Origin: Comamonas fluminis
Lineage (GTDB): Bacteria; Pseudomonadota; Gammaproteobacteria; Burkholderiales; Burkholderiaceae_C
Length of the DNA: 64,000 bases
NCBI RefSeq assembly: GCF_019186805.1
Contig: NZ_CP066783.1
Coordinates: forward strand, 1,377,501 to 1,441,500
Direction: 5' to 3'
Shown: one piece after another, positions 50,122 through 64,000 of the stretch
How positions within the stretch are numbered: position 1 is the stretch's first letter
Layout: each line of letters begins with the position of its first letter
Made by a program: the position numbers and the translations under genes
The notes under the pieces: model-generated
What the model was told of the DNA's origin: nothing
What the model saw: only the letters and a program-made list of their open reading frames with translations
Database searches by the model: none

Positions 50122-50197
50122 GCGGGAATAGCTCAGTTGGTAGAGCGATACCTTGCCAAGGTATAGGTCGACGGTTCGAACCCGTTTTCCCGCTCCA
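50122..50197 (+). tRNA. tRNA-Gly (anticodon GCC), copy 1
   Basis: 76 nt with encoded CCA; acceptor GCGGGAA / TTCCCGC, anticodon stem ATACC-TTGCCAA-GGTAT. First of four identical copies with a 133-bp period. Confidence 0.96.
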
Positions 50198-50254
50198 GGT
50201 TTTCAGAATCTGTAGCAATGCAGATTCGCATCAAGAGGCGTAAGTCTTTTGAAT

Positions 50255-50330
50255 GCGGGAATAGCTCAGTTGGTAGAGCGATACCTTGCCAAGGTATAGG
50301 TCGACGGTTCGAACCCGTTTTCCCGCTCCA
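50255..50330 (+). tRNA. tRNA-Gly (anticodon GCC), copy 2
   Basis: Identical in sequence to copy 1, 57 bp after it. The spacer holds a small hairpin (AATCTG-N8-CAGATT). Confidence 0.96.
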
Positions 50331-50387
50331 GGTTTTCAGAATCTGTAGCAATGCAGATTCGCATCAAGAGGCGCAAGTCTTTTGAAT

Positions 50388-50463
50388 GCGGGAATAGCTC
50401 AGTTGGTAGAGCGATACCTTGCCAAGGTATAGGTCGACGGTTCGAACCCGTTTTCCCGCTCCA
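50388..50463 (+). tRNA. tRNA-Gly (anticodon GCC), copy 3
   Basis: Identical to copies 1 and 2. The spacer before it differs from the others by one base (gaggcgc in place of gaggcgt). Confidence 0.96.
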
Positions 50464-50520
50464 GGTTTTCAGAATCTGTAGCAATGCAGATTCGCATCAA
50501 GAGGCGTAAGTCTTTTGAAT

Positions 50521-50596
50521 GCGGGAATAGCTCAGTTGGTAGAGCGATACCTTGCCAAGGTATAGGTCGACGGTTCGAACCCGTTTTCCCGCTCCA
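50521..50596 (+). tRNA. tRNA-Gly (anticodon GCC), copy 4
   Basis: Identical to the other three; last of the tandem set, 16 bp before tRNA-Cys. Confidence 0.96.
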
Positions 50597-50612
50597 GGTT
50601 TTTTGTGATAGC

Positions 50613-50686
50613 GGCGCGATAGCAAAGCGGTTATGCCCCGGATTGCAAATCCGGTTAGACCAGTTCGACTCTGGTTCGCGCCTCCA
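50613..50686 (+). tRNA. tRNA-Cys (anticodon GCA)
   Basis: 74 nt with encoded CCA; acceptor GGCGCGA / TCGCGCC, anticodon stem CCGGA-TTGCAAA-TCCGG. Probably cotranscribed with the tRNA-Gly set. Confidence 0.95.
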
Positions 50687-51270: not shown

Positions 51271-52604
51271 GAGGGCGTGTCCGAATTTTTGTGTAAACGG
51301 TTCGGACTTCAATTGATGGAAATGCGGTCTCCGAACTGAATGGTAAAGCGGGTCAGCGCAGCCTTCCAATCCCGGATGGGCATGGTCCACTTCTGGCTGA
51401 TGTTGCGCAGGGCCAGGTAGAACAGCTTGGTCAGCGCCTCGTCGCTGGGGAACGAGCCCCGGTTCTTGGTCAGCTTCCTCAGGCCCATGTTCACCGACTC
51501 GATGGCATTGGTGGTGTAGATGACCTTGCGGATTTCCGGCGGGTAGTCAAAGAACGGGGTCAAGCGGCTCCAGTTCCTGCGCCAGGACTGGCCGATGGGC
51601 AGGTACTCGGCATCCCAGCGCTGCTCGAATTCACCGAGCATCAGCTCGGCCTCCTCGGCGGTGGCGGCCGTGTAGATGCGTCTCAGGTCTGCGGCCACTT
51701 CTTTGCGACGCTTCCACGAGACGTAGTTCAGGCTGTGGCGCACCATGTGCACGATGCACAACTGAACCACTGTCCTGGGAAACACGGCCTCAATGGCTTC
51801 AGGGAAGCCCTTGAGGCCATCGACGCAGGCGATGAAGATGTCATGCACGCCCCGGTTGCGCAGCTCGGTCACGACCTGCAGCCAGAATTTGGCCCCCTCG
51901 GTCTGCGCCAGCCACAGGCCCAGCACCTCCTTCTCGCCCGTCATGGTGATGCCGATGGCCAGGTACACCGCCTTGACCCGCACAGCGCCCTCGCGCACCT
52001 TCACATGGATGCAGTCCAGATAGACGATGGGGTAGATTGCATCGAGCGGGCGGGCTTGCCAGGTCTTGACCTCATCGGCCACGGCGTCGGTCACCGAGGA
52101 AATCAGGCTGGGCGAGACCTCGGTGCCGTACATCTCCTCTAGGTGGGCCTGTATCTCGCGCACCGTCATGCCGCGGGCGTACAGCGAGATGATTTTGTCG
52201 TCGAAGCCGGCCCAGCGGGTCTGGTGCTTGGGGATGAGTTGGGGCTCGAAGCTGCCATGGCGGTCACGTGGCACCTCGATGGGCAACTCGCCGAAATCGC
52301 CCTTGAGGGTCTTCTTGCTCTTGCCATTGCGGGTGTTGCCAGTGGTGTTGGCTACCGCTTCGTTGCGTTCGTGGCCCAGATGCTCGGTCAGTTCGGCGTC
52401 CAGGGCTCGCTCCACCAGCAGCTTGGTCAACTGTTTGAGCAGGCCGTTCTCGCCGATGAGGTCTTCGGGTTTCTTGTAGTTGGCCAGCAGGCCAGACAGC
52501 AGTTCTTCGGGTACGTCGTGTTTCTTGGTGCTCATTGTGCTTACGGATAGGCCGGCTTGCGCCGGCGGTGGATTGTCCGTTTACACAAAATTCTGCACAC
52601 CCTC
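51271..52604 (-). mobile_element. IS256-family insertion sequence
   Basis: Complete element of about 1.33 kb. The terminal inverted repeats (51271-51300 and 52577-52604) share GAGGG(c/t)GTG and TTGTGTAAACGG. The 8-bp word CAACTTGA lies at 51265-51272 and again at 52605-52612, consistent with a target duplication, with the outer two bases of the left end being ambiguous. One intact transposase gene fills it. Confidence 0.88.
51309..52535 (-). CDS. IS256-family transposase
   Basis: 408 residues, full length. The mutator-type DDE residues appear in IVYLDCIHVKV, IACVDGLKGFPEAI and YTTNAIESVN. The region ALDAELTEHLGHERN is the usual N-terminal signature. No frameshift or truncation, so the element may be active. 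Confidence 0.95.
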   Translation of the reverse strand: MSTKKHDVPEELLSGLLANYKKPEDLIGENGLLKQLTKLLVERALDAELTEHLGHERNEAVANTTGNTRNGKSKKTLKGDFGELPIEVPRDRHGSFEPQLIPKHQTRWAGFDDKIISLYARGMTVREIQAHLEEMYGTEVSPSLISSVTDAVADEVKTWQARPLDAIYPIVYLDCIHVKVREGAVRVKAVYLAIGITMTGEKEVLGLWLAQTEGAKFWLQVVTELRNRGVHDIFIACVDGLKGFPEAIEAVFPRTVVQLCIVHMVRHSLNYVSWKRRKEVAADLRRIYTAATAEEAELMLGEFEQRWDAEYLPIGQSWRRNWSRLTPFFDYPPEIRKVIYTTNAIESVNMGLRKLTKNRGSFPSDEALTKLFYLALRNISQKWTMPIRDWKAALTRFTIQFGDRISIN

Positions 52605-52744
52605 CAACTTGATTGCCTGTAGGTTAATTCCTTCAGTCTTGTAGTCTAAATTCGACTCTTGAGGGTTGCTTCTTGGGTGTAAACCCTTGTTTTTAATCGT
52701 TTTGAGTTGCCGGTCATTCTGCTAACTGAATCGCCCCGGATTCC

Positions 52745-53620
52745 CTAGACACTTTTAAGCCGTTGGGAATGGCGTTTCTCGAACTCTATCGGAGAAATAT
52801 CTCCTGCAGTGCCGTGACGCCTTTTTGGGTTGTAGAACATCTCGATGTAGTTGAAGATATCTGCCCTTGCGTCCTCGCGCGACGTGTAGATCTGGCGACG
52901 AATTCGCTCGCGCTTGAGCAACTGGAAGAAGCTCTCGGCCACTGCGTTGTCATGACAGTTACCGCGGCGACTCATGCTGGAGACTAGGTTGTGATCTCGT
53001 AGGAAGTCCTGCCAGTCATGCCCGGTGAACTGACTTCCCTGATCCGAATGCACCATGACCGCCTGATCAGGTCGACGACGCCACAGAGCCATCAGTAGTG
53101 CATCGAGTACCAAGTCGGTATCGATGCGGCTGCCCATGGACCAGCCCACGACCAGACGGGAGAACAGATCAACCACCACTGCCAGGTACAGCCATCCCTC
53201 GTGAGTGCGGATGTACGTGATGTCGGTCACCCACGATTGATTGGGCTCATCCACAGCGAAGCGGCGCTGCAGGTGGTTAGGGGCAACTATGGCGGGCTTG
53301 CCTCCGCGCATCCCAGGGCGGCGCCGGTATCCCGTTTGCGAACGCAGCCCTTGGAGCTTGAGCAAACGGGCCACGCGGTGTTTACCGCAGCGCTCTCCCA
53401 GATCCCGCATGTCCAGTGTGAGCTTGCGGTAGCCGTACACACCACCACTTTCAAGCCAGGCTTGTTTGAGCAAACCTTGCAGTCGCAGATCATCCCGAGC
53501 CCGTGGGCTGACGGGTTCAGCTTTCCAAGCGTAATACCCGCTGGGATGTACCACCATGACTTTGCACATGCTACGAATGCTGTATTCGTGCTCATGTTTC
53601 TGAATAAATGCGTACTTCAC
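52745..53620 (-). CDS. IS3-family transposase, OrfB (integrase catalytic part)
   Basis: 291 residues. An HTH_21-type region (MCKVMVVHPSGYYAWK) precedes the rve domain with DDE residues in WVTDITYI, VMVHSDQGSQF and CHDNAVAESFFQLLK. The frame opens at a GTG overlapping the OrfA stop (GTGA); expression is by coupling or by programmed frameshift as an OrfAB fusion. Confidence 0.93.
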   Translation of the reverse strand: MKYAFIQKHEHEYSIRSMCKVMVVHPSGYYAWKAEPVSPRARDDLRLQGLLKQAWLESGGVYGYRKLTLDMRDLGERCGKHRVARLLKLQGLRSQTGYRRRPGMRGGKPAIVAPNHLQRRFAVDEPNQSWVTDITYIRTHEGWLYLAVVVDLFSRLVVGWSMGSRIDTDLVLDALLMALWRRRPDQAVMVHSDQGSQFTGHDWQDFLRDHNLVSSMSRRGNCHDNAVAESFFQLLKRERIRRQIYTSREDARADIFNYIEMFYNPKRRHGTAGDISPIEFEKRHSQRLKSV

Positions 53621-53895
53621 CCGAGCTGCTTGGCAAAGTACGCTGCGGCCTTTTTTAGGATGTCACGCTCCTCGGTCACACGCTTGAGCTCGGACTTTAG
53701 TCTGCGCAACTCTTCTGTCTGCGTAAGTTGAGCTTGTCGCTCTGCGGGAGGCCCTGAATGCGTCTTCAGCCACTGATACAGGCTATGTTGACTAACGCCA
53801 AGGCGCTGTGACACGTCAGCGACCTTGTGGCCTCGTTGTGTGATCTGCTTGATGGCTTCGATCTTGAATTCGTCTGGATATTTAGGCTTACTCAT
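53617..53895 (-). CDS. IS3-family transposase, OrfA
   Basis: 92 residues. Helix-turn-helix (VADVSQRLGVSQHSLYQWLK) followed by a leucine-zipper-like coiled coil (ELRRLKSELKRVTEERDILKK, quoted in part). A perfect aggaggt ribosome site precedes the ATG. Confidence 0.93.
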   Translation of the reverse strand: MSKPKYPDEFKIEAIKQITQRGHKVADVSQRLGVSQHSLYQWLKTHSGPPAERQAQLTQTEELRRLKSELKRVTEERDILKKAAAYFAKQLG

Positions 53896-54020
53896 GGCAC
53901 CTCCTATTGGGCCTCGGGATTGAGGCTCAGAAGTGTCTAGAAAACCCGGGGCGATTCAAACTGTGCGGGCGATGCACGGTTTCCTCGGTTGAGTCTCAAG
54001 GCTCTTCATCACCCTAATCA

Positions 54021-57000
54021 ATGTCAAACATGTCAGTCAATATCGTCATCAAGTCGAACAATACGGTCAGCAAGGACATCCCTCTGGAAAATCTGAGCCT
54101 GACTCAGCCTTCCATCGTTCAACTGGATATCGCTCCTGAAAAAGTGGCCCGATTCGAGCGGCGTGACAATGATCTGGCATTGGTGCTCAAGGACGGTCGC
54201 ACGGTGATCGTGCAAAACTTTTTCGTAGTGGATGCCAATGGCGTGCGCAGCGATTTGGTGCTGCTGGATGATTCTGGCGTGCTGTGGTGGGGGCAGTACA
54301 GCTCGCCTTGGGCCCAGTTCCACTTTACGGAAATTGAATGGATTGATGCACCCATAGCGTTGCTGCCCAATGCTGGAGCTATTCCTGGCTGGTTGCTTGC
54401 AGGCCTGGGGGCTTTGGGGTTGATAGTGGCGTCAGACATTAATGCTGGCGGATCGTCACAACCTGAAAGCAATCGTGCTCCCACGGCTCTTGCGGATCCC
54501 TTGAGTCTCAAGGAGAACGGTACGGGTAGCGGCAAGATCACGGCGCAAGATCCGGATGGCGATGTACCAAGGTTTGTAGTTACTACCCCACCTGTCAACG
54601 GCACTGTGACAATGAACCCTGATGGGACGTTTGTCTACACACCAAACCCCGGTTTTAGTGGCGAAGACAAGTTCACGGTGACCGTGAGTGATGGTAAGGG
54701 CGGTACCACTACAGTGGACGTTCCCGTGACCGTGACGCCAAGCGAGACGCAGCCAGGCATTACCCCTCCGATCCAGCATGTGGTGACGGATGAGGACACG
54801 CCAGTATCTGGGAAGGTCACAGCAACAGACTCCGATGGCGGCACGCTGACCTACACCAAGGGTAGTGAACCCGCCCATGGCACCGTGACCGTCAATCCTG
54901 ACGGCACCTGGACCTATACGCCCAGCAAGGACTACAACGGCAAAGACAGCTTCACCGTGACGGTGGATGACGGCAAGGGTGGCACCAGCACGGTTACCGT
55001 GGATGTGGATGTGACTCCGGTCAACGATGCGCCTGTGGCCAAGGATGACGTGGGCACCTATGACCCCGCTTCCAGCACCTTTGTGGGAAGTGTGCTTAAA
55101 AATGACGCTGACCCAGACGGTGACCCGCTGAAGGTCACCGGCTTTGTCGTAGGCGGTAAAACCTATGCGCCTGGTCAAACCGTTGAACTGCTGTCCACCA
55201 ATGGTGACAAGGTCGGTTCGTTGACAGTCAAGGAAGACGGCAGCTATGCATTTGTGCCTCAGCCCGGCTATGCGGGTAGCGTGCCTAAAATTGACTACAC
55301 CGTCACTGACGGAACGTTGAGCGACACAGCAACGCTGACCTTCCCGGAACTGCCCTACAACAACAATCCGCCAGCAGGCAAGGCGGACCCTGTGACTACA
55401 AATGAAGACACGCCAGTGTCTGGCAAGGTCACAGTGACAGACCCCGATGGGGACACGCCAACGTTTATCGTGACCACGCCTCCTGCCCATGGCACGGTGA
55501 CCATCAATCCGGACGGCTCGTTCGAATACACCCCCAACTCGAACTACAACGGCGGTGACACGTTCACGGTGACCGTGGAAGACGGTAAGGGCGGTACCAC
55601 CACGGTGGAAGTGCCCGTGATGGTCAACCCTGTCAACGATGCACCTCTAGCCAAGGATGACGTGGGCACCTACGACCCCGCTTCCAGCACCTTTGTGGGA
55701 AGCGTGCTTAAAAATGATGTTGACCCAGACGGCGACACGCTGAAGGTCACCAGCTTTGTCGTGGGCGGTAAAACCTATGAGCCTGGCCAAACCGTTGAAC
55801 TGCTGTCCACCAATGGCGACAAGGTTGGTTCGTTGACAGTCAAGGAAGACGGCAGCTATGCATTTGTGCCGCAGCCCGGTTATGCGGGTAGCGTGCCTCA
55901 AATTGACTACACCGTCACTGACGGAACGTTGAGCGACACAGCAACGCTGACCTTCCCGGAACTGCCCTACAACAACAATCCGCCAGCAGGCAAGGCGGAC
56001 CTTGTGACGACAAATGAAGACACGCCAGTGTCTGGCAAGGTCACAGTGACAGACCCCGATGGGGACACGCCGACGTTTATCGTGACCACGCCGCCTGCCC
56101 ATGGCACGGTGACCATCAAGCCTGATGGCTCGTTCGAATACACCCCCAACTCGAACTACAACGGCGGTGACAGCTTCACGGTGACCGTGGAAGATGGCAA
56201 GGGCGGTACAACGACGGTGGACGTTCCTGTGACGGTTAACCCCGTCAACGATGTTCCTGTGGCATTTGTGCCACCAGTGGTGACAGATGAAGACACACCG
56301 ACCACCGGCAAGATCACTGTGACCGATCCGGATGGTGGTACACCGACCTTCTCGGTGACCACACCGCCTACCAACGGCACGGTGACGATCAAGCCCGACG
56401 GCTCGTTCGAGTACACCCCTAACCCTGGCTACAACGGTGGTGACAAGTTCACGGTAACCGTTGACGACGGCAAGGGCGGTACCACCACGGTGGAAGTACC
56501 CGTGATGGTCAACCCTGTCAACGATGCGCCTGTGGCCAAGGATGATGTGGGCACCTATGACCCCGCTTCCAGCACCTTTGTGGGAAGCGTGCTTAAAAAT
56601 GATGTTGACCCAGACGGCGACACGCTGAAAGTCACCAGCTTTGTTGTGGGCGGTAAAACCTATGCGCCTGACCAAACCGTTGAACTGCTGTCCACCAATG
56701 GCGACAAGGTTGGTTCGTTGACAGTCAAGGAAGACGGCAGCTATGCATTTGTGCCGCAGCCCGGCTATGCGGGTAGCGTGCCTAAAATCGACTACACCGT
56801 CACCGACGGAACGTTGAGCGACACAGCAACACTGACCTTCCCGGAACTGCCCTACAACAACAATCCGCCAGCAGGCAAGGCGAACCCTGTCATTACGAAT
56901 GAAGACACGCCAGTGTCTGGCAAGGTCACAGTGACAGACCCCGATGGGGACACGCCAACGTTTATCGTGACCACGCCGCCTGCCCATGGCACGGTGACGA

Positions 57001-60000
57001 TCAATCCGGATGGCTCGTTCGAATACATCCCTAACTCGAACTACAACGGCGGTGACAGCTTCACGGTGACCGTGGAAGACGGTAAGGGCGGTATAACGAC
57101 GGTGGACGTTCCTGTGACGGTTAACCCCGTCAACGATGTTCCTGTGGCATCCGTGCCTCCAGTGGTGACAGATGAAGACACACCGACCACCGGCAAGATC
57201 ACTGTGACCGATCCGGATGGTGATACACCGACCTTCTCGGTGACCACACCGCCCACCAACGGCACGGTGACGATCAAGCCCGACGGCTCGTTCGAGTACA
57301 CCCCTAACCCTGGCTACAACGGTGGTGACAAGTTCACGGTAACCGTTGACGACGGCAAGGGCGGTACCATCACGGTGGAAGTGCCCGTGATGATCAACCC
57401 TGTCAACGATGCGCCTGTGGCCAAGGATGACGTGGGCACCTATGACCCCGCTTCCAGCACCTTTGTGGGAAGCGTGCTTAAAAATGACGCTGACCCAGAT
57501 GGTGACCCGCTGAAGGTCACCAGCTTTGTCGTAGGCGGTAAAACCTATGCGCCTGGCCAAACCGTTGAACTGCTGTCCACCAATGGTGACAAGGTCGGTT
57601 CGTTGACAGTCAAGGAAGACGGTAGCTATGCATTTGTGCCGCAGCCCGGCTATGCGGGTAGCGTGCCTCAAATTGACTACACCGTCACCGACGGAAAGTT
57701 GAGCGACACAGCAACGCTGACCTTCCCGGAACTGCCCTACAACAACAATCCGCCAGCAGGCAAGGCGGACCCTGTGACTACAAATGAAGACACGCCAGTG
57801 TCTGGCAAGGTCACAGTGACAGACCCCGATGGGGACACGCCAACGTTTATCGTGACCACGCCGCCTGCCCATGGCACGGTGACGATCAATCCGGATGGCT
57901 CGTTCGAATACATCCCTAACTCGAACTACAACGGCGGTGACAGCTTCACGGTGACCGTGGAAGACGGTAAGGGCGGTACAACGACGGTAGAAGTGCCTGT
58001 GAGTGTCAATGGCGCTCCTGTGCTCGTCGATAGTAATGGCAACCCAGTCAGCGGCAAGGTGACGGAAACAACACCCGAGGACACCCCCGTCAATGGCAAG
58101 CTGACGGCGACCGATCCTGATGGCGACAAACTGACCTACACCAAAGGCAGCGACCCCACCAACGGCACCGTGACCGTCAACACCGACGGCACCTGGACCT
58201 ATACGCCCAACAAGGACTACAGCGGCAATGACAGCTTCACTGTGACGGTGGATGACGGCAAGGGTGGCACCAGCACGGTTACAGTGAATGTGGATGTGAT
58301 TCCGGTCAACGATGCACCGACAGCGCCAAGCAACACCATCACCGTGCTCGAAGAAAGCACCGGCACCAGCCTGGGCCTGACAACGCCCACCGATGCTGAC
58401 GGCGACACGCTGACCATCACTGTCACGGGCCTGCCCCCACTGGGCACGGTCAAGCTGGCCGATGGCACCGTGGTGACCAATAACATGACGCTGACCAGCA
58501 CGCAGCTGACCGGTCTGGTCTACGACGCACCGGCTGACTACAACGGCACCGATCCTGTGGGCAGCTTCACCTATACCGTCGATGACGGCCAGGGTGAGAG
58601 CAACAGCATCAGCACCGGCACCGTGACCATTGGTGTGACGGAAGTCAACGATGCACCGACAGCGCCAAGCAACACCATCACCGTGGACGAAGAAAGCACC
58701 GGCACCAGCCTGGGCCTGACAACGCCCACCGATGCTGACGGCGACACACTGACCATCACTGTCACGGGCCTGCCCACACTGGGCACGGTCAAGTTGGCCG
58801 ATGGCTCCGTGGTGACCAACGGCCAGACCCTGACCAGCAGCCAGCTGACCGGTCTGGTCTACGACGCACCGGCCGACTACAACGGCGTCGATCCTGTGGG
58901 CAGCTTCACCTACACCGTCGACGACGGCCAGGGTGAGAGCAACAGCATCAGCACCGGCACCGTGACCATTGGTGTGACGGAAGTCAACGATGCACCGACA
59001 GCGCCAAGCAACACCATCACCGTGGACGAAGAAAGCACCGGCACCAGCCTGGGCCTGACAACGCCCACCGATGCTGACGGCGACACACTGACCATCACTG
59101 TCACGGGCCTGCCCACACTGGGCACGGTCAAGTTGGCCGATGGCTCCGTGGTGACCAACGGCCAGACCCTGACCAGCAGCCAGCTGACCGGTCTGGTCTA
59201 CGACGCACCGGCCGACTACAACGGCGTCGATCCTGTGGGCAGCTTCACCTACACCGTCGACGACGGCCAGGGTGAACCCAACAGCGTCAGCACGGGCACC
59301 GTGACCATTGGCGTGACGGAAGTCAACGATGCACCGACAGCGCCAAGCAACGCCATCACCGTGCCCGAAGAAAGCACAGGCACCAGCCTGGGCCTGACAA
59401 CGCCTACCGATGTCGACGGCGACACGCTGACCATCACCGTCACTGGCCTGCCCACACTGGGCACGGTCAAGCTGGCCGATGGCTCCGTGGTGACCAACGG
59501 CCAGACCCTGACCAGCAGCCAGCTGACCGGTCTGGTCTACGACGCACCGGCCGACTACAACGGCGTCGATCCTGTGGGCAGCTTCACCTACACCGTCGAC
59601 GACGGCCAGGGTGAACCCAACAGCGTCAGCACGGGCACCGTGACCATTGGCGTGACGGAAGTCGACGACCCATCTGTGCTGGTGCCAGATACAAAGGTAG
59701 TGAACGAAGACAAGGATGCAATTGGCAATGTGCTGACCAACGACACCGATGTCGACAGCACCTTGACCGTGCAAAGTTTCACGATCGCTGGAGTAACTGG
59801 CAGCTTCACGGCAGGTAGCTTGGCGGTAATTGCTGGTGTGGGCACGCTGACCATTGGCAGCGATGGTGCCTATACCTTTAGGCCGGAGACCAACTGGGAT
59901 GGTCAGGTGCCGCAAGTCACCTACGCCACCAATACTGGCAGCAGCTCGACGCTGGATATCACCGTGCGGGCTGTGCCTGAAGCCACCATCGTCATTGCCG

Positions 60001-63000
60001 ATGATGTGCTGGTGCCGGGCCGTGGTACTACCGTCACGATCACCTTTGACAAGGACATTGATCCGAGCACATTCACCCTGGCGGATATATCGATCATGGT
60101 CGGTGGCGTGGCAACGCCGGGTGCTGGTGTGCTGAGCAATCTGGTTCAAGACCCTGTGACCCAAGAGTGGACGGCCACCTTTACGCCTGACGAGTCTGCG
60201 CGTGGCAAGCAGATCGATCTGGTGATTGCCGATGGCAGCTTCACGAGCACTGCGGGTGTGGCGGGTATCGGTGATGAGGATGACACACGCGTGAACATTC
60301 GTCCCACGTTGGATCTGGATGTTGATTCGGGCAGCATCAGCTATGTAGGGGGGGGGGATATTGCGGGGACAGGCAATAGCAGTGATTACAACAATAGCTG
60401 GTCTGTGACGGGTGGTAATTCTCAAATCTGGCCAGAAATAAAGAACGGAGGCATCAACCTTTCAGCTGATGGAGGGTCGTACTCCGCTATTCTCAAGAAC
60501 TCACCTGAACTAACCTCGGGCCAGGTGTTGCAGCTGTCCATGAGCTGGAACAATGGTTGGGGAGGAGGAGACGGCAAATCCGGTGGGGTGTCCACCCTGA
60601 CATGGAGCTACGGCGGGGCCGACTTCATGACAGCAACGACACCCGCGCCCGGTACTTCGGGGCCAAACTGGGGTGACGCCTTCCCGGCTGATTCGCTCAA
60701 CGCCACCATTACGCTGGCTCCCGGTGTGCAGATTTCCTTCGACGGTGGAGTGACGTGGTTGGATAACAGCAAACCGATTCCATGGGGAACATGGATGACG
60801 CATACCAATCAGGATAACAAATGGTCTGCAGCTGAGGTAGACGACATTCTGGTCAAGCTGCCGGATTCCATGCTGTCACCGGGCAACAAACTGAGCTTTG
60901 CTTGGAATGCCGTAACTGGCACGAGTGATGACTTCCAGATCTCTGATATACAGGTTATGACACCCGACCCCGCCAGCGGTAGCGGTGGCACTGCAGGCGA
61001 CACCGTGGTCTATGATCCCGATGCGAATGGCAATGCCGATGCCAGCAAGGACTTGCTGGACAAGGTCACCGTGGCCGATCTGGATTCGGGCGACTTCATC
61101 CGTTCCACGGTCATCGCCCTGAAGGACGCCCAGCCGGGCGACCAGATGTGGCTAGAGGGGAACACCTCGTCCACTGGCTCTGTGACTGTGAGCGGCTCCA
61201 CGCTGAATTACAGCATTGCGCAAGTGGCCGGCGATATTGTTCTGACCATCACTTCGCCTACCGGTGCAGATGTGCCCAAGGAAGTGTGGAACGAGGTGCT
61301 GGAGTCGCTGACCTTTGGTACGACTTACCCTGACCCTGGTGAGCGCACGGTGAGCTTTGTGATCAACGATGGTCTGGAAGATAGCGACGCTGCCGAGATC
61401 AAGATTGATGTGCAGTCTCCTGCTGATGTGGGCACGATTCCTGGTCTGGATGTGAGTTCAGATCCGGGCAGCTACACCAGCATGGACAATGATGACAACC
61501 CATTGAACGGCGGCAATGGCGATGACGTGCTGCTGGGCGACCCCGGTGGTGTTGGCGTAGTGCAGAACCCAGCAGAGGACTACAACATTGTTCTGCTGGT
61601 GGATCAATCCTTGAGCATGAACAGCAATAGTTTGATTCAAAATACGGAGGCCGCACTGAGGGCTCTGGTCACTAGCATGAGCGGTCATCAAGGCAAGATC
61701 AATATTGCTTTGGTGGGCTTCTCTGAATTGGCTAGCACGGGTGTGAAGGTGAGCTTGACCGATATCACTACAGGTGACTTTACGAGCAACGTTGCCAGTC
61801 TGATGACGGCAATTGATGCTCTGAGTACCGGCCTGAAGGCGAGAACCAACTATGAAGCAGGCTTTAACGCAGCTGTGAACTGGCTCAATACCCAGCCTTC
61901 GGGATACCAGAACCTGACCTACTTCATTACTGACGGTGTACCGAATGGTTATGTCAAGGACGATGGCACAGAGTTCCAAGGTTCTGGCACTACTACGACG
62001 GCTGCAATCATGAATGACACGATTGCTTCGTTCAACAAGCCAGGGGGTCTGGGTGATATCAGCAAGGTGCATGCCGTTGGCTTGGGTTCTGGCATTGATC
62101 TGAATACGCTCAAGTTCTTTGACAACAGCGATCTGGTCACGTCGAATCACTCTATAACCATTGGAGGAACCACTGTCACTGGTAATGGAGGAGATGTCAC
62201 GATGGTGGCAAATGCTACGGATCTGACTGCTGCTTTGAAGGGCGTTAGCACTGACATCAAGCAAGACCCTGTGGGTAGTGACGTGGTCAAGGGCGGCAAT
62301 GGGGACGATATCTTGTTCGGCGATACGTTGAATACGGATGCGCTCCAGTGGTCTGGCAGAGCAGCCTATCCCGCAGGTTCGGGGCTGGCTGCGCTCAAGG
62401 CGTATCTGAAGTCGGAAGTCACTGCCGGTGTCGATCCTACGGATGAGCAGATTTATGCTTATCTGCGTGAGAACCATGCCCAGTTCAATGTCTCTGGAGA
62501 CCTGCGTGGTGGCCATGACATTCTGGATGGCGGCGCAGGCAACGACATCCTGTACGGTCAAGGTGGACGCGATACCTTGCGTGGTGGCGCGGGTGACGAC
62601 ATCCTGTACGGCGGTACCGGTGCTGACACTTTTGTATGGAAGCAGGGTGACACTGGTAACGACAGCATCAAGGACTTCAGCATTGCCGCAGGCGACAAGA
62701 TTGACCTGAGTGGTTTGCCAAGTAACTTCACGTACAGCATGGTGGACAACGCCGACGGTGATGCCTTCCTGGTGCTGAAGGATCAAGCGGGTGTGTCTTT
62801 TGCTTCTATCACGGTAGACGGAGTAAGTACGGCGGATCTGAATGCGAGTGGTTTGTTGCTAGCTCCAGCTGCTGCTCCTGCTGCCACGTTTGCCATGGCC
62901 AGAGCCTTCCATTTGGATTCCTCAGAGGATGGGCTTGATGCAGCGACGCCGCAAAGTGGTGACCAGGTGAATCTTGTGTCTGCAACACAGGCTGCTGAAG

Positions 63001-63290
63001 TCAATGCCTTCCAGACTCCATCGTTGCTGTCGCTGGCAGCTCTGGATGGACTGGATTCAAGCGAGGACGATGGCGTCGAGCTGCCCGCTTTGGAGGACGT
63101 TCTGAGCACAGGTTCTTCGGCGGCTGAGTCGCTGAATCTTGGATCCGTGACCGACGACTCGGACGCTGAAGCGGTATCGGCGATGCCTAATGCCGCTGCA
63201 TTCAGCTTTGAAGCTGAGTCGCTGACCTATTTGCCGTCGACTGTGGCTTCACAGGACGACGAGCAACTGTATTCGAGCGTGCACATCTGA
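54021..63290 (+). CDS. giant repeat adhesin with Bap-like N-terminus, vWA domain and RTX repeats
   Basis: 3089 residues, probably secreted by a type I system and used in adhesion or biofilm. Residues 1-140 form a BapA-prefix-like domain with a hydrophobic stretch (121-139), which may anchor the protein. From about 150 to 1330 come cadherin/Ig-like modules with DPDGD calcium motifs, arranged in 612- and 885-bp units. Residues about 1429-1880 are four 113-residue modules. An Ig-like region follows, then, at about 2100-2320, a domain containing the G10 tract. A vWA domain (about 2519-2745) has an intact MIDAS DQSLS. RTX nonapeptides (GGNGDDVLLGD, GGAGNDILYGQ) sit at about 2494, 2756 and 2830-2872. 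The acidic tail ends SSVHI. No good ribosome site is seen; ATG at 54030 is an alternative. IS3 ends 62 bp upstream. A TolC-type gene follows. Confidence 0.9.
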   Translation: MSNMSVNIVIKSNNTVSKDIPLENLSLTQPSIVQLDIAPEKVARFERRDNDLALVLKDGRTVIVQNFFVVDANGVRSDLVLLDDSGVLWWGQYSSPWAQFHFTEIEWIDAPIALLPNAGAIPGWLLAGLGALGLIVASDINAGGSSQPESNRAPTALADPLSLKENGTGSGKITAQDPDGDVPRFVVTTPPVNGTVTMNPDGTFVYTPNPGFSGEDKFTVTVSDGKGGTTTVDVPVTVTPSETQPGITPPIQHVVTDEDTPVSGKVTATDSDGGTLTYTKGSEPAHGTVTVNPDGTWTYTPSKDYNGKDSFTVTVDDGKGGTSTVTVDVDVTPVNDAPVAKDDVGTYDPASSTFVGSVLKNDADPDGDPLKVTGFVVGGKTYAPGQTVELLSTNGDKVGSLTVKEDGSYAFVPQPGYAGSVPKIDYTVTDGTLSDTATLTFPELPYNNNPPAGKADPVTTNEDTPVSGKVTVTDPDGDTPTFIVTTPPAHGTVTINPDGSFEYTPNSNYNGGDTFTVTVEDGKGGTTTVEVPVMVNPVNDAPLAKDDVGTYDPASSTFVGSVLKNDVDPDGDTLKVTSFVVGGKTYEPGQTVELLSTNGDKVGSLTVKEDGSYAFVPQPGYAGSVPQIDYTVTDGTLSDTATLTFPELPYNNNPPAGKADLVTTNEDTPVSGKVTVTDPDGDTPTFIVTTPPAHGTVTIKPDGSFEYTPNSNYNGGDSFTVTVEDGKGGTTTVDVPVTVNPVNDVPVAFVPPVVTDEDTPTTGKITVTDPDGGTPTFSVTTPPTNGTVTIKPDGSFEYTPNPGYNGGDKFTVTVDDGKGGTTTVEVPVMVNPVNDAPVAKDDVGTYDPASSTFVGSVLKNDVDPDGDTLKVTSFVVGGKTYAPDQTVELLSTNGDKVGSLTVKEDGSYAFVPQPGYAGSVPKIDYTVTDGTLSDTATLTFPELPYNNNPPAGKANPVITNEDTPVSGKVTVTDPDGDTPTFIVTTPPAHGTVTINPDGSFEYIPNSNYNGGDSFTVTVEDGKGGITTVDVPVTVNPVNDVPVASVPPVVTDEDTPTTGKITVTDPDGDTPTFSVTTPPTNGTVTIKPDGSFEYTPNPGYNGGDKFTVTVDDGKGGTITVEVPVMINPVNDAPVAKDDVGTYDPASSTFVGSVLKNDADPDGDPLKVTSFVVGGKTYAPGQTVELLSTNGDKVGSLTVKEDGSYAFVPQPGYAGSVPQIDYTVTDGKLSDTATLTFPELPYNNNPPAGKADPVTTNEDTPVSGKVTVTDPDGDTPTFIVTTPPAHGTVTINPDGSFEYIPNSNYNGGDSFTVTVEDGKGGTTTVEVPVSVNGAPVLVDSNGNPVSGKVTETTPEDTPVNGKLTATDPDGDKLTYTKGSDPTNGTVTVNTDGTWTYTPNKDYSGNDSFTVTVDDGKGGTSTVTVNVDVIPVNDAPTAPSNTITVLEESTGTSLGLTTPTDADGDTLTITVTGLPPLGTVKLADGTVVTNNMTLTSTQLTGLVYDAPADYNGTDPVGSFTYTVDDGQGESNSISTGTVTIGVTEVNDAPTAPSNTITVDEESTGTSLGLTTPTDADGDTLTITVTGLPTLGTVKLADGSVVTNGQTLTSSQLTGLVYDAPADYNGVDPVGSFTYTVDDGQGESNSISTGTVTIGVTEVNDAPTAPSNTITVDEESTGTSLGLTTPTDADGDTLTITVTGLPTLGTVKLADGSVVTNGQTLTSSQLTGLVYDAPADYNGVDPVGSFTYTVDDGQGEPNSVSTGTVTIGVTEVNDAPTAPSNAITVPEESTGTSLGLTTPTDVDGDTLTITVTGLPTLGTVKLADGSVVTNGQTLTSSQLTGLVYDAPADYNGVDPVGSFTYTVDDGQGEPNSVSTGTVTIGVTEVDDPSVLVPDTKVVNEDKDAIGNVLTNDTDVDSTLTVQSFTIAGVTGSFTAGSLAVIAGVGTLTIGSDGAYTFRPETNWDGQVPQVTYATNTGSSSTLDITVRAVPEATIVIADDVLVPGRGTTVTITFDKDIDPSTFTLADISIMVGGVATPGAGVLSNLVQDPVTQEWTATFTPDESARGKQIDLVIADGSFTSTAGVAGIGDEDDTRVNIRPTLDLDVDSGSISYVGGGDIAGTGNSSDYNNSWSVTGGNSQIWPEIKNGGINLSADGGSYSAILKNSPELTSGQVLQLSMSWNNGWGGGDGKSGGVSTLTWSYGGADFMTATTPAPGTSGPNWGDAFPADSLNATITLAPGVQISFDGGVTWLDNSKPIPWGTWMTHTNQDNKWSAAEVDDILVKLPDSMLSPGNKLSFAWNAVTGTSDDFQISDIQVMTPDPASGSGGTAGDTVVYDPDANGNADASKDLLDKVTVADLDSGDFIRSTVIALKDAQPGDQMWLEGNTSSTGSVTVSGSTLNYSIAQVAGDIVLTITSPTGADVPKEVWNEVLESLTFGTTYPDPGERTVSFVINDGLEDSDAAEIKIDVQSPADVGTIPGLDVSSDPGSYTSMDNDDNPLNGGNGDDVLLGDPGGVGVVQNPAEDYNIVLLVDQSLSMNSNSLIQNTEAALRALVTSMSGHQGKINIALVGFSELASTGVKVSLTDITTGDFTSNVASLMTAIDALSTGLKARTNYEAGFNAAVNWLNTQPSGYQNLTYFITDGVPNGYVKDDGTEFQGSGTTTTAAIMNDTIASFNKPGGLGDISKVHAVGLGSGIDLNTLKFFDNSDLVTSNHSITIGGTTVTGNGGDVTMVANATDLTAALKGVSTDIKQDPVGSDVVKGGNGDDILFGDTLNTDALQWSGRAAYPAGSGLAALKAYLKSEVTAGVDPTDEQIYAYLRENHAQFNVSGDLRGGHDILDGGAGNDILYGQGGRDTLRGGAGDDILYGGTGADTFVWKQGDTGNDSIKDFSIAAGDKIDLSGLPSNFTYSMVDNADGDAFLVLKDQAGVSFASITVDGVSTADLNASGLLLAPAAAPAATFAMARAFHLDSSEDGLDAATPQSGDQVNLVSATQAAEVNAFQTPSLLSLAALDGLDSSEDDGVELPALEDVLSTGSSAAESLNLGSVTDDSDAEAVSAMPNAAAFSFEAESLTYLPSTVASQDDEQLYSSVHI
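55038..58017 (+). repeat. long in-frame tandem repeats in the adhesin (612/885-bp units)
   Basis: The same module start (GCCAAGGATGA) recurs at 55038, 55650, 56535 and 57420. The first spacing is 612 bp and the next two are exactly 885 bp. The 273-bp difference is one extra 91-residue module. Units are nearly identical in DNA, not only in protein, so they are recent or homogenised copies. Confidence 0.92.
58305..59660 (+). repeat. four 339-bp tandem repeats in the adhesin
   Basis: Units begin GTCAACGATGCACCGACAGC at 58305, 58644, 58983 and 59322, each 113 codons. The second and third are almost identical in DNA until their last 50 bp, pointing to very recent duplication or conversion. Confidence 0.93.
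60348..60357 (+). repeat. homopolymer run of ten G inside the adhesin gene
   Basis: Encodes VGGGD at about residue 2109-2113. Loss or gain of one G would shift the frame before the vWA, RTX and tail regions. Confidence 0.9.
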
Positions 63291-63358: not shown

Positions 63359-64000
63359 ATGTCTACGCATTTATTGGGAAAGTTCCGCGTCCGCCCTGTT
63401 ATGGCCGCGGGAGCTTGGTGCTGCCTGCTGGCGGCTCAAAGCATGGCTGCGCAAACGCTTGATGCAGGACCGGCTTCGGCCATGGATATGGGGGCGGCCG
63501 TAAAAGCTGCTGTGTCCTGGCATCCGTCGGTGCGTACTGCGCAAGGTCAGTTGCTGCAAGCTGATCAGGGTATCGCTGTGGCCAAGGCGGGTTACATGCC
63601 GCAGGTGAAGGCAGGTATCGGTAGTGAATTGCGCAACCGTGTGATTACGCCGTATGACACGCGCCGTGTGCATGACGCAAGTGTTTCGGTGTCGCAAATG
63701 CTCTATGACTTTGGTAAGGTGGACAGTGCCGTCCAGCAGGCCGAAGCGTCTATTTCTACAGCCCAGGCGCAGGTGCAGCTATCGACAGAAGAAGTTGCAC
63801 GCGAGGCTGCTTTGGCCTGGGTTGAGGTTAGGCGCCAGCAAGAACTGGCGACTGTGGCACAGGCTCAGGTGTCAGGAGTGAAGGCGTTGGCCGATTTGGC
63901 GCTGGAGCGTCAGATCAAGGGGGCAAGTGCCAAGTCAGATGCATTGCAGGCACAGTCGCGGGTGGAGTCTGCCCGTGCTTCCGCGATTAATTACGAAGCC
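63359..64000 (+). CDS. TolC-family outer membrane protein (partial, runs off the window)
   Basis: The first 214 codons are open to the window edge. A signal peptide of about 34 residues (ending SMAAQ) is followed by the outer-membrane-efflux start (MDMGAAVKAAVSWHPSVRTA), the strand VSVSQMLYDFGKVDSAVQQA and long helices. This is the layout of TolC/LapE channels of type I secretion. Its place right after the adhesin suggests it exports that protein; the ABC and adaptor genes would lie beyond the window. ATG at 63359 is chosen as the first Met before the signal peptide. Confidence 0.87.
   Translation, partial: MSTHLLGKFRVRPVMAAGAWCCLLAAQSMAAQTLDAGPASAMDMGAAVKAAVSWHPSVRTAQGQLLQADQGIAVAKAGYMPQVKAGIGSELRNRVITPYDTRRVHDASVSVSQMLYDFGKVDSAVQQAEASISTAQAQVQLSTEEVAREAALAWVEVRRQQELATVAQAQVSGVKALADLALERQIKGASAKSDALQAQSRVESARASAINYEA

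Follow-up and report, generated by a model that had tools for sequence, protein, structure and literature searches.

Poly-G tracts within reading frames

The closest described systems are genes in which a homopolymeric G tract lies inside the reading frame. In Moraxella catarrhalis, the mid/hag adhesin gene carries an in-ORF tract of 6-10 G among the five strains listed in Table 1 of the paper describing it, and the length tracks the on or off phase (PMC7302503). Campylobacter has phase-variable poly-G genes, among them the capD autotransporters, and in some of these the tract is in frame (PMC6321876, PMC7168839). The former study sets its cut-off for SSR tracts at 7 or more G or C, and the latter argues that the inactive capC autotransporter copies result from decay and not from poly-G switching. 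A third case is the 'C-terminal phase variation' of Helicobacter canadensis, with at least 10 G far into the reading frame; such late tracts are judged to sit too deep in the gene for translational switching of the usual kind (PMC2823697).

We have analysed a 64,000-nucleotide stretch of Comamonas fluminis DNA (hereafter the window) that contains a run of ten G within the gene for a giant adhesin. On paper, this tract works like the translational poly-G phase variation of Moraxella mid/hag and of Campylobacter. It shares with mid/hag its location in the frame of a surface adhesin, and with some of the Campylobacter genes a similar length (PMC6321876, PMC7168839). In Moraxella the variation in tract length was measured by fragment analysis (PMC7302503). 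The late position recalls H. canadensis, with the difference that there mostly a few end residues change, whereas an out-of-frame tract in the Comamonas adhesin would cost about 960-970 residues (PMC2823697). A literature search, with most subscription papers outside its reach, found no report of poly-G control of a BapA-type adhesin, nor of such a tract in any adhesin that leaves the cell by type I secretion, nor in the genus Comamonas. The mid/hag product is an autotransporter and is not known to be type I secreted.

The adhesin gene and its exporter

The features of the locus are collected in Table 1. The adhesin begins with a BapA prefix domain (PF22783, BapA_N, residues 5-112, E 2.3e-25), for which the NF033677 model scores 59.8 bits against a cut-off of 35. 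It also has Ig/cadherin-like tandem repeats (18 stretches of PF17963 and 17 of NF012211), a vWA domain at residues 2522-2660 and RTX repeats (two stretches of PF00353, the best RTX stretch being 2836-2870). The large-adhesin model for BapA, Bap and LapF (NF045619) stays below its curated cut-off, at 147 versus 180 bits, and its best stretch, 485-556, falls within the repeats. BapA_N, Ig/cadherin-like repeats, vWA, RTX and an adjacent TolC-ABC-HlyD set are all shared with the BapA-type, type I secreted adhesins, and the combination of RTX repeats with linked type I exporter genes (OEP, ABC and HlyD downstream) is present. The ORF is most simply read as a type-I-secreted adhesin with its own exporter. 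Its type I export signal presumably lies at the C-terminus, as in the BapA-type family.

Table 1. Features of the adhesin locus, in positions of the window
Feature	Position	Strand	Remarks
Mutator/IS256-type element	51277-52600	-	24-nt inverted repeats; further upstream of the adhesin
IS3-family element	52727-53958	-	inverted repeats of 35 nt; target duplication AAC (3 bp); 62 bp between its end and the adhesin ATG
Giant BapA-type RTX adhesin ORF	54021-63290	+	3089 codons; from ORF and domain searches
339-bp tandem repeat	58305-59668	+	4.0 copies, 96% matches; upstream of the G10 tract
GGG-rich module	60303-61010	+	about codons 2095-2330; no Pfam or NCBIfam match listed; tract near its N-terminal edge
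G10 homopolymer	60348-60357	+	in frame, codons 2110-2112 and first base of codon 2113
GTG, codon 2129	60405-60407	+	at 8, 9, 11 or 12 G, sole start codon from the preceding in-frame stop up to this point; P0025 starts there
TolC-like outer membrane factor (OEP)	63359-64000, runs past the window	+	followed by ABC exporter and HlyD-type adaptor

Predicted effect of slippage

The G10 tract is flanked by TATGTA (5') and ATATTG (3') and is read as GTA GGG GGG GGG GAT, that is V-GGG-D in the protein context Y-V-G-G-G-D, two thirds of the way into the 9-kb gene. In silico, tracts of 8, 9, 11 and 12 G give products of 2118, 2128, 2119 and 2129 residues, respectively, all four without vWA, RTX and C-terminus; with 7 or 13 G the frame is kept. 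In length and placement the tract thus resembles those of SSR phase-variable genes, since a slip at G10 breaks the frame. The first-pass annotation had placed the run in frame at codon 2110, upstream of the vWA, RTX and C-terminal regions, and had proposed that a slip of one base would remove them. The sequence and the ORF reading confirm the run and its frame, the domain analysis agrees with its placement, and the predicted loss is borne out in silico, with the type I exporter genes lying downstream.

When the tract has 8, 9, 11 or 12 G, a stop at 60323 or 60346 interrupts the C-terminal frame; the first start codon that follows this stop is the GTG of codon 2129. An in-frame copy, on the other hand, offers TTG or GTG start codons at 60309, 60291 and 60258 and more further upstream. 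Expression of a functional C-terminal piece from this GTG was considered and rejected, no purine-rich ribosome site being seen before it by eye. Transcriptional slippage at G10 was considered as well and set aside.

A near-identical relative that starts after the tract

A search with the last 953 residues of the adhesin retrieved P0025, the sole near-identical match of three protein searches. This protein of 961 residues, encoded on a contig of 5189 bp, is 99% identical, with 7 substitutions besides the start residue, and its initial methionine falls exactly on codon 2129 of the window's adhesin. Because this GTG is the first start open to the C-terminal frame with 8, 9, 11 or 12 G, P0025 has the form in which an out-of-frame allele would enter the records. 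It is probably such an allele in a near-identical relative. The same start could instead reflect a contig that begins no more than about 95 bp away, or a homopolymer miscounted in the assembly. Another relative, P0026, begins at an internal ATG in the absence of any such tract, which indicates that internal starts arise in such records for other reasons.

No upstream partner of P0025 with a shifted tail was seen among proteins of 220-700 residues (the best 120 of 487 matches, and 263 fetched proteins searched with both short tails). Nor did a search among proteins of about 1700-5400 residues, using residues 1980-2480 as query and scoring the best 2663 candidates, reveal a near-identical copy in either phase; the window's own protein was not returned either, so that this silence says little.

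The module around the tract

The surroundings of the run had been described as GC-balanced in the first-pass annotation. This is not quite right, since the module that starts near the tract is rich in GGG: this triplet encodes 8 of its 35 glycines, or 5 of 32 once the tract is left out, versus 9 of 230 in codons 1-2094. The GC content of its first 86 codons is 0.516 versus 0.565-0.615 upstream. A fold prediction from three sequences gave a mean pLDDT of 53.9, too weak to use.

Clear relatives of the module were found only in P0025, P0026 and a Pseudogemmobacter locus (L010:1230-1892; 53%), the one distant relative returned by the genome-contig search; other protein matches were weak and partial. 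Among 61 relatives, the window's own genome alone was matched, and among 399 genomes of the family the own genome was joined by one marginal match (E 3.3e-4). P0026 carries a 70% version of the module that reads YVGGTD at the tract position, and the Pseudogemmobacter locus reads YDAGPN; the GGG triplet is absent from both. The module looks like one that has been exchanged between distant lineages, the G run being specific to one version. P0026 also lacks about residues 2510-2835 (about 325 residues), including the vWA domain, and its last 255 residues are 92.5% identical to the window's adhesin; we note this as modular swapping within the adhesin.

Congener adhesins and other collections

The N-terminal 150 residues of the adhesin found a match in 9 of 53 genomes of the genus, the own genome included. 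Whole stretches were taken for seven of the eight others; G065 was omitted, and its short loci have no G or C run over 5. The adhesin ORF is closed by a stop in five of the seven stretches (1286-4053 codons) and cut by the contig end in G017 and G074. None of the five closed ORFs has a run of 9 or more G, and no G or C run of at least 9 occurs in any of the seven stretches, in which the longest is a G8. This G8 (L100:2278) lies near codon 145 of the 4053-codon ORF, a start-proximal position better suited to phase variation. In the congener adhesin stretches examined there is no conserved poly-G site. As to conservation of the tract with varying length, then, no closed congener ORF has a G9 or longer, P0026 and L010 are without the triplet, and P0025 suggests an out-of-frame allele at the level of the protein only.

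For the vWA/RTX part, relatives were found in 32 of 61 genomes (the own one among them), often as short RTX matches. The longest G or C runs in the 29 short loci from this search (L012-L040) are two of 8. Strain-level variants were sought in viral contigs with the flanking pattern and a gap of 3-30 bases, with no match. Two protein-guided scans of viral contigs found no relative, and plasmids gave no match; records of the window's own genome or a very near one may be absent from these DNA collections, which makes their silence weak.

Is the run exceptional?

In whole-window dinucleotide shuffles, at least one G10 on either strand was present in 14 of 100. Synonymous-codon shuffles with the codon use of the whole gene gave a run of at least 10 in 7 of 2000, and those with the local codon use of codons 2095-2330 in 100 of 2000. 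The run is therefore unlikely in the adhesin gene under gene-wide codon use and not so under local codon use; the former figure leaves room for selection.

In the genome (4.91 Mb, two contigs, both strands) there are seven G or C runs of at least 9, six of them of 9 and one, the G10 tract, of 10, which is the longest. G7 occurs at 157 places, and a hand count of the first 100 of these gave 57 runs of 7, 12 of 8, 5 of 9 and 1 of 10. This fall-off, by a factor of 0.24-0.33 per added base, leads one to expect about two runs of at least 10 versus the one observed, so that the excess over background looked for in an SSR phase-variable gene is absent. G10 is rare for the adhesin gene and ordinary for the genome. 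Of the six G9 runs, five lie in what look by eye to be the frames of a 3-dehydroquinate synthase, a lipoprotein, a VgrG-like protein (opposite strand), a periplasmic receptor and a GGDEF protein (at its very start), and one has no clear gene. The genome encodes MutS and MutL family members that score above cut-off, from which we infer modest slip rates.

The genus gives a similar picture: 42 of its 53 genomes (own included), and 36 of the 46 cleaner assemblies, contain one or more runs of at least 10. Artefacts of assembly may account for some of these runs, which reach 35 G. Thirty control loci, one per genome and including the own, were fetched; besides the window's, 12 have a stop-to-stop frame of more than 300 residues across the tract. 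Eleven of these were inspected (L078 was omitted), and one frame each of eight was searched in Pfam, L054, L064 and L081 being left aside as low-complexity or ambiguous. Seven of the eight frames had a match. The tract lies within or at the start of an enzyme domain in three (phosphomethylpyrimidine kinase, apolipoprotein N-acyltransferase and LuxC acyl-CoA reductase) and outside the matched domain in four (FimV, an F5/8 type C protein, a CoA-transferase III and a thiolase). Ordinary genes in the genus thus tolerate runs of at least 10. A 35-G run (L075:1501-1535) occurs in a single-contig congener genome (G001), with short frames only across it.

Insertion elements upstream of the adhesin

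The IS3-family element just upstream of the adhesin has its transposase pointing away from that gene. Nine further full copies in the genome (ten in total) are identical to it, indicating a recent insertion. The element may separate the adhesin gene from its promoter, and this strain may not express the adhesin at all, irrespective of the tract. The nearest IS3 and some of the protein matches fit the Comamonadaceae named in the first-pass annotation, but go no further than that. A consensus scan for one promoter type, sigma-70-like sites, found none in 52590-54100 versus 0.6 expected by chance. The Mutator/IS256-type element is flanked by CAACTT-like sequences that appear similar by eye.

A mutable tract or a switch

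We think it on balance probable that the G10 tract, within a GGG-rich module specific to the lineage, is mutable and a site of occasional inactivation, reversible in principle, rather than a selected switch. Ordinary codon choice together with slippage would have produced the run where this module encodes Gly-Gly-Gly. Any change by other than a multiple of three is computed to stop translation at about residue 2120-2130, ahead of vWA, RTX and the C-terminus. Slips would occur at a low rate and leave an unexportable stub, and slippage probably gave at least one out-of-frame allele, in the near-identical relative represented by P0025. The inactivation would be occasional and in principle reversible, most likely with no switch kept by selection. 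We count in favour of this reading the frame analysis, the start of P0025 at codon 2129, the run-length tail of the genome, the 42 genomes of the genus with such runs (some of them inside enzyme domains), the five closed congener ORFs without a G9 or longer, the missing triplet in P0026 and L010, and the presence of MutS and MutL. Counted against it are the doubt about a contig edge or assembly error in P0025, the internal start of P0026, the want of a shifted-tail partner and the 7 of 2000 shuffles.

The first-pass annotation had suggested that the tract could turn the adhesin on and off. The frame mechanics, the exporter downstream and the likeness of P0025 to the C-terminal piece of an out-of-frame allele speak for this, whereas the run is no outlier in genome or genus, is absent from the five closed congener ORFs, has no counterpart triplet in P0026 or L010, and is matched by runs of 9-11 in enzyme genes. 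A switch is possible but unproven, and the background of the genome and of the genus weakens the case for it; the single result that sustains it is P0025, probably an out-of-frame allele. In its full form, a contingency locus whose fast-flipping tract turns adhesin export on and off in the population, as poly-G tracts do for the autotransporter adhesins of Moraxella and Campylobacter, seems to us unlikely. The longest G or C run of the genome does lie within a surface adhesin, P0025 resembles an OFF allele, and ten G is within the range reported to switch in other bacteria (PMC6321876, PMC7302503). Yet it is the one such tract in the genome and on the expected tail, was not found in the congener adhesins or in the module relatives P0026 and L010, and lies so late that most of the product would still be made; MutS and MutL are present and the promoter is perhaps displaced by the IS. 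We are likewise doubtful of a late-ORF phase switch, by which ten G would export the whole fibre, a slip would leave an unexported stub of about 2100 residues, and strains like the one behind P0025 would be in the OFF phase.

That the tract is inert is also improbable. It would then be effectively stable, and P0025 would be a gene call at a contig edge or the result of a misassembled homopolymer; the adhesin would simply be on, or be off for reasons unrelated to the tract. The internal start called in P0026 without a tract, the lack of a shifted-tail partner, the short contig of P0025, whose 5' edge may be close to the tract, and the G9 runs in frames resembling housekeeping genes (named by eye) are consistent with this. 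However, the start of P0025 is exactly the one that a frame shift would force, and an in-frame copy has the alternative starts listed above. Very improbable, finally, is a decay in which the adhesin is being lost, the IS3 element has silenced the gene here and the tract is another site that gathers unselected frameshifts. The position of this element with its target duplication, the direction of its transposase and the result of the promoter scan would fit, but the 9.3-kb ORF has no stop in this genome, the exporter genes are present downstream, and the scan covered one promoter type.

If a mutable tract is all that G10 represents, it calls for caution, as a G10 run comes close to what is expected of a GC-rich genome, however attractive the gene that holds it. 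If it were a switch, poly-G contingency control would extend to the type I secretion class and to the Comamonas lineage. Whether a giant adhesin is exported, and with it perhaps how the cells attach and form biofilms, would then depend on a single tract, and adhesin annotations such as 'partial' or 'split' would need rereading.

Further observations

Upstream of the insertion elements, at 50122-50686, four near-identical tRNA-Gly(gcc) genes lie in tandem, followed by tRNA-Cys. Elsewhere in the genome, a LapG-type protease (PF06035) is encoded in L087 (G000:C2:2800837-2804076), flanked on one side by what looks like a gene of GGDEF type and on the other by the apparent end of a further RTX-like adhesin (neighbours identified by eye). 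From this context it is likely that the genome contains a second adhesin system.
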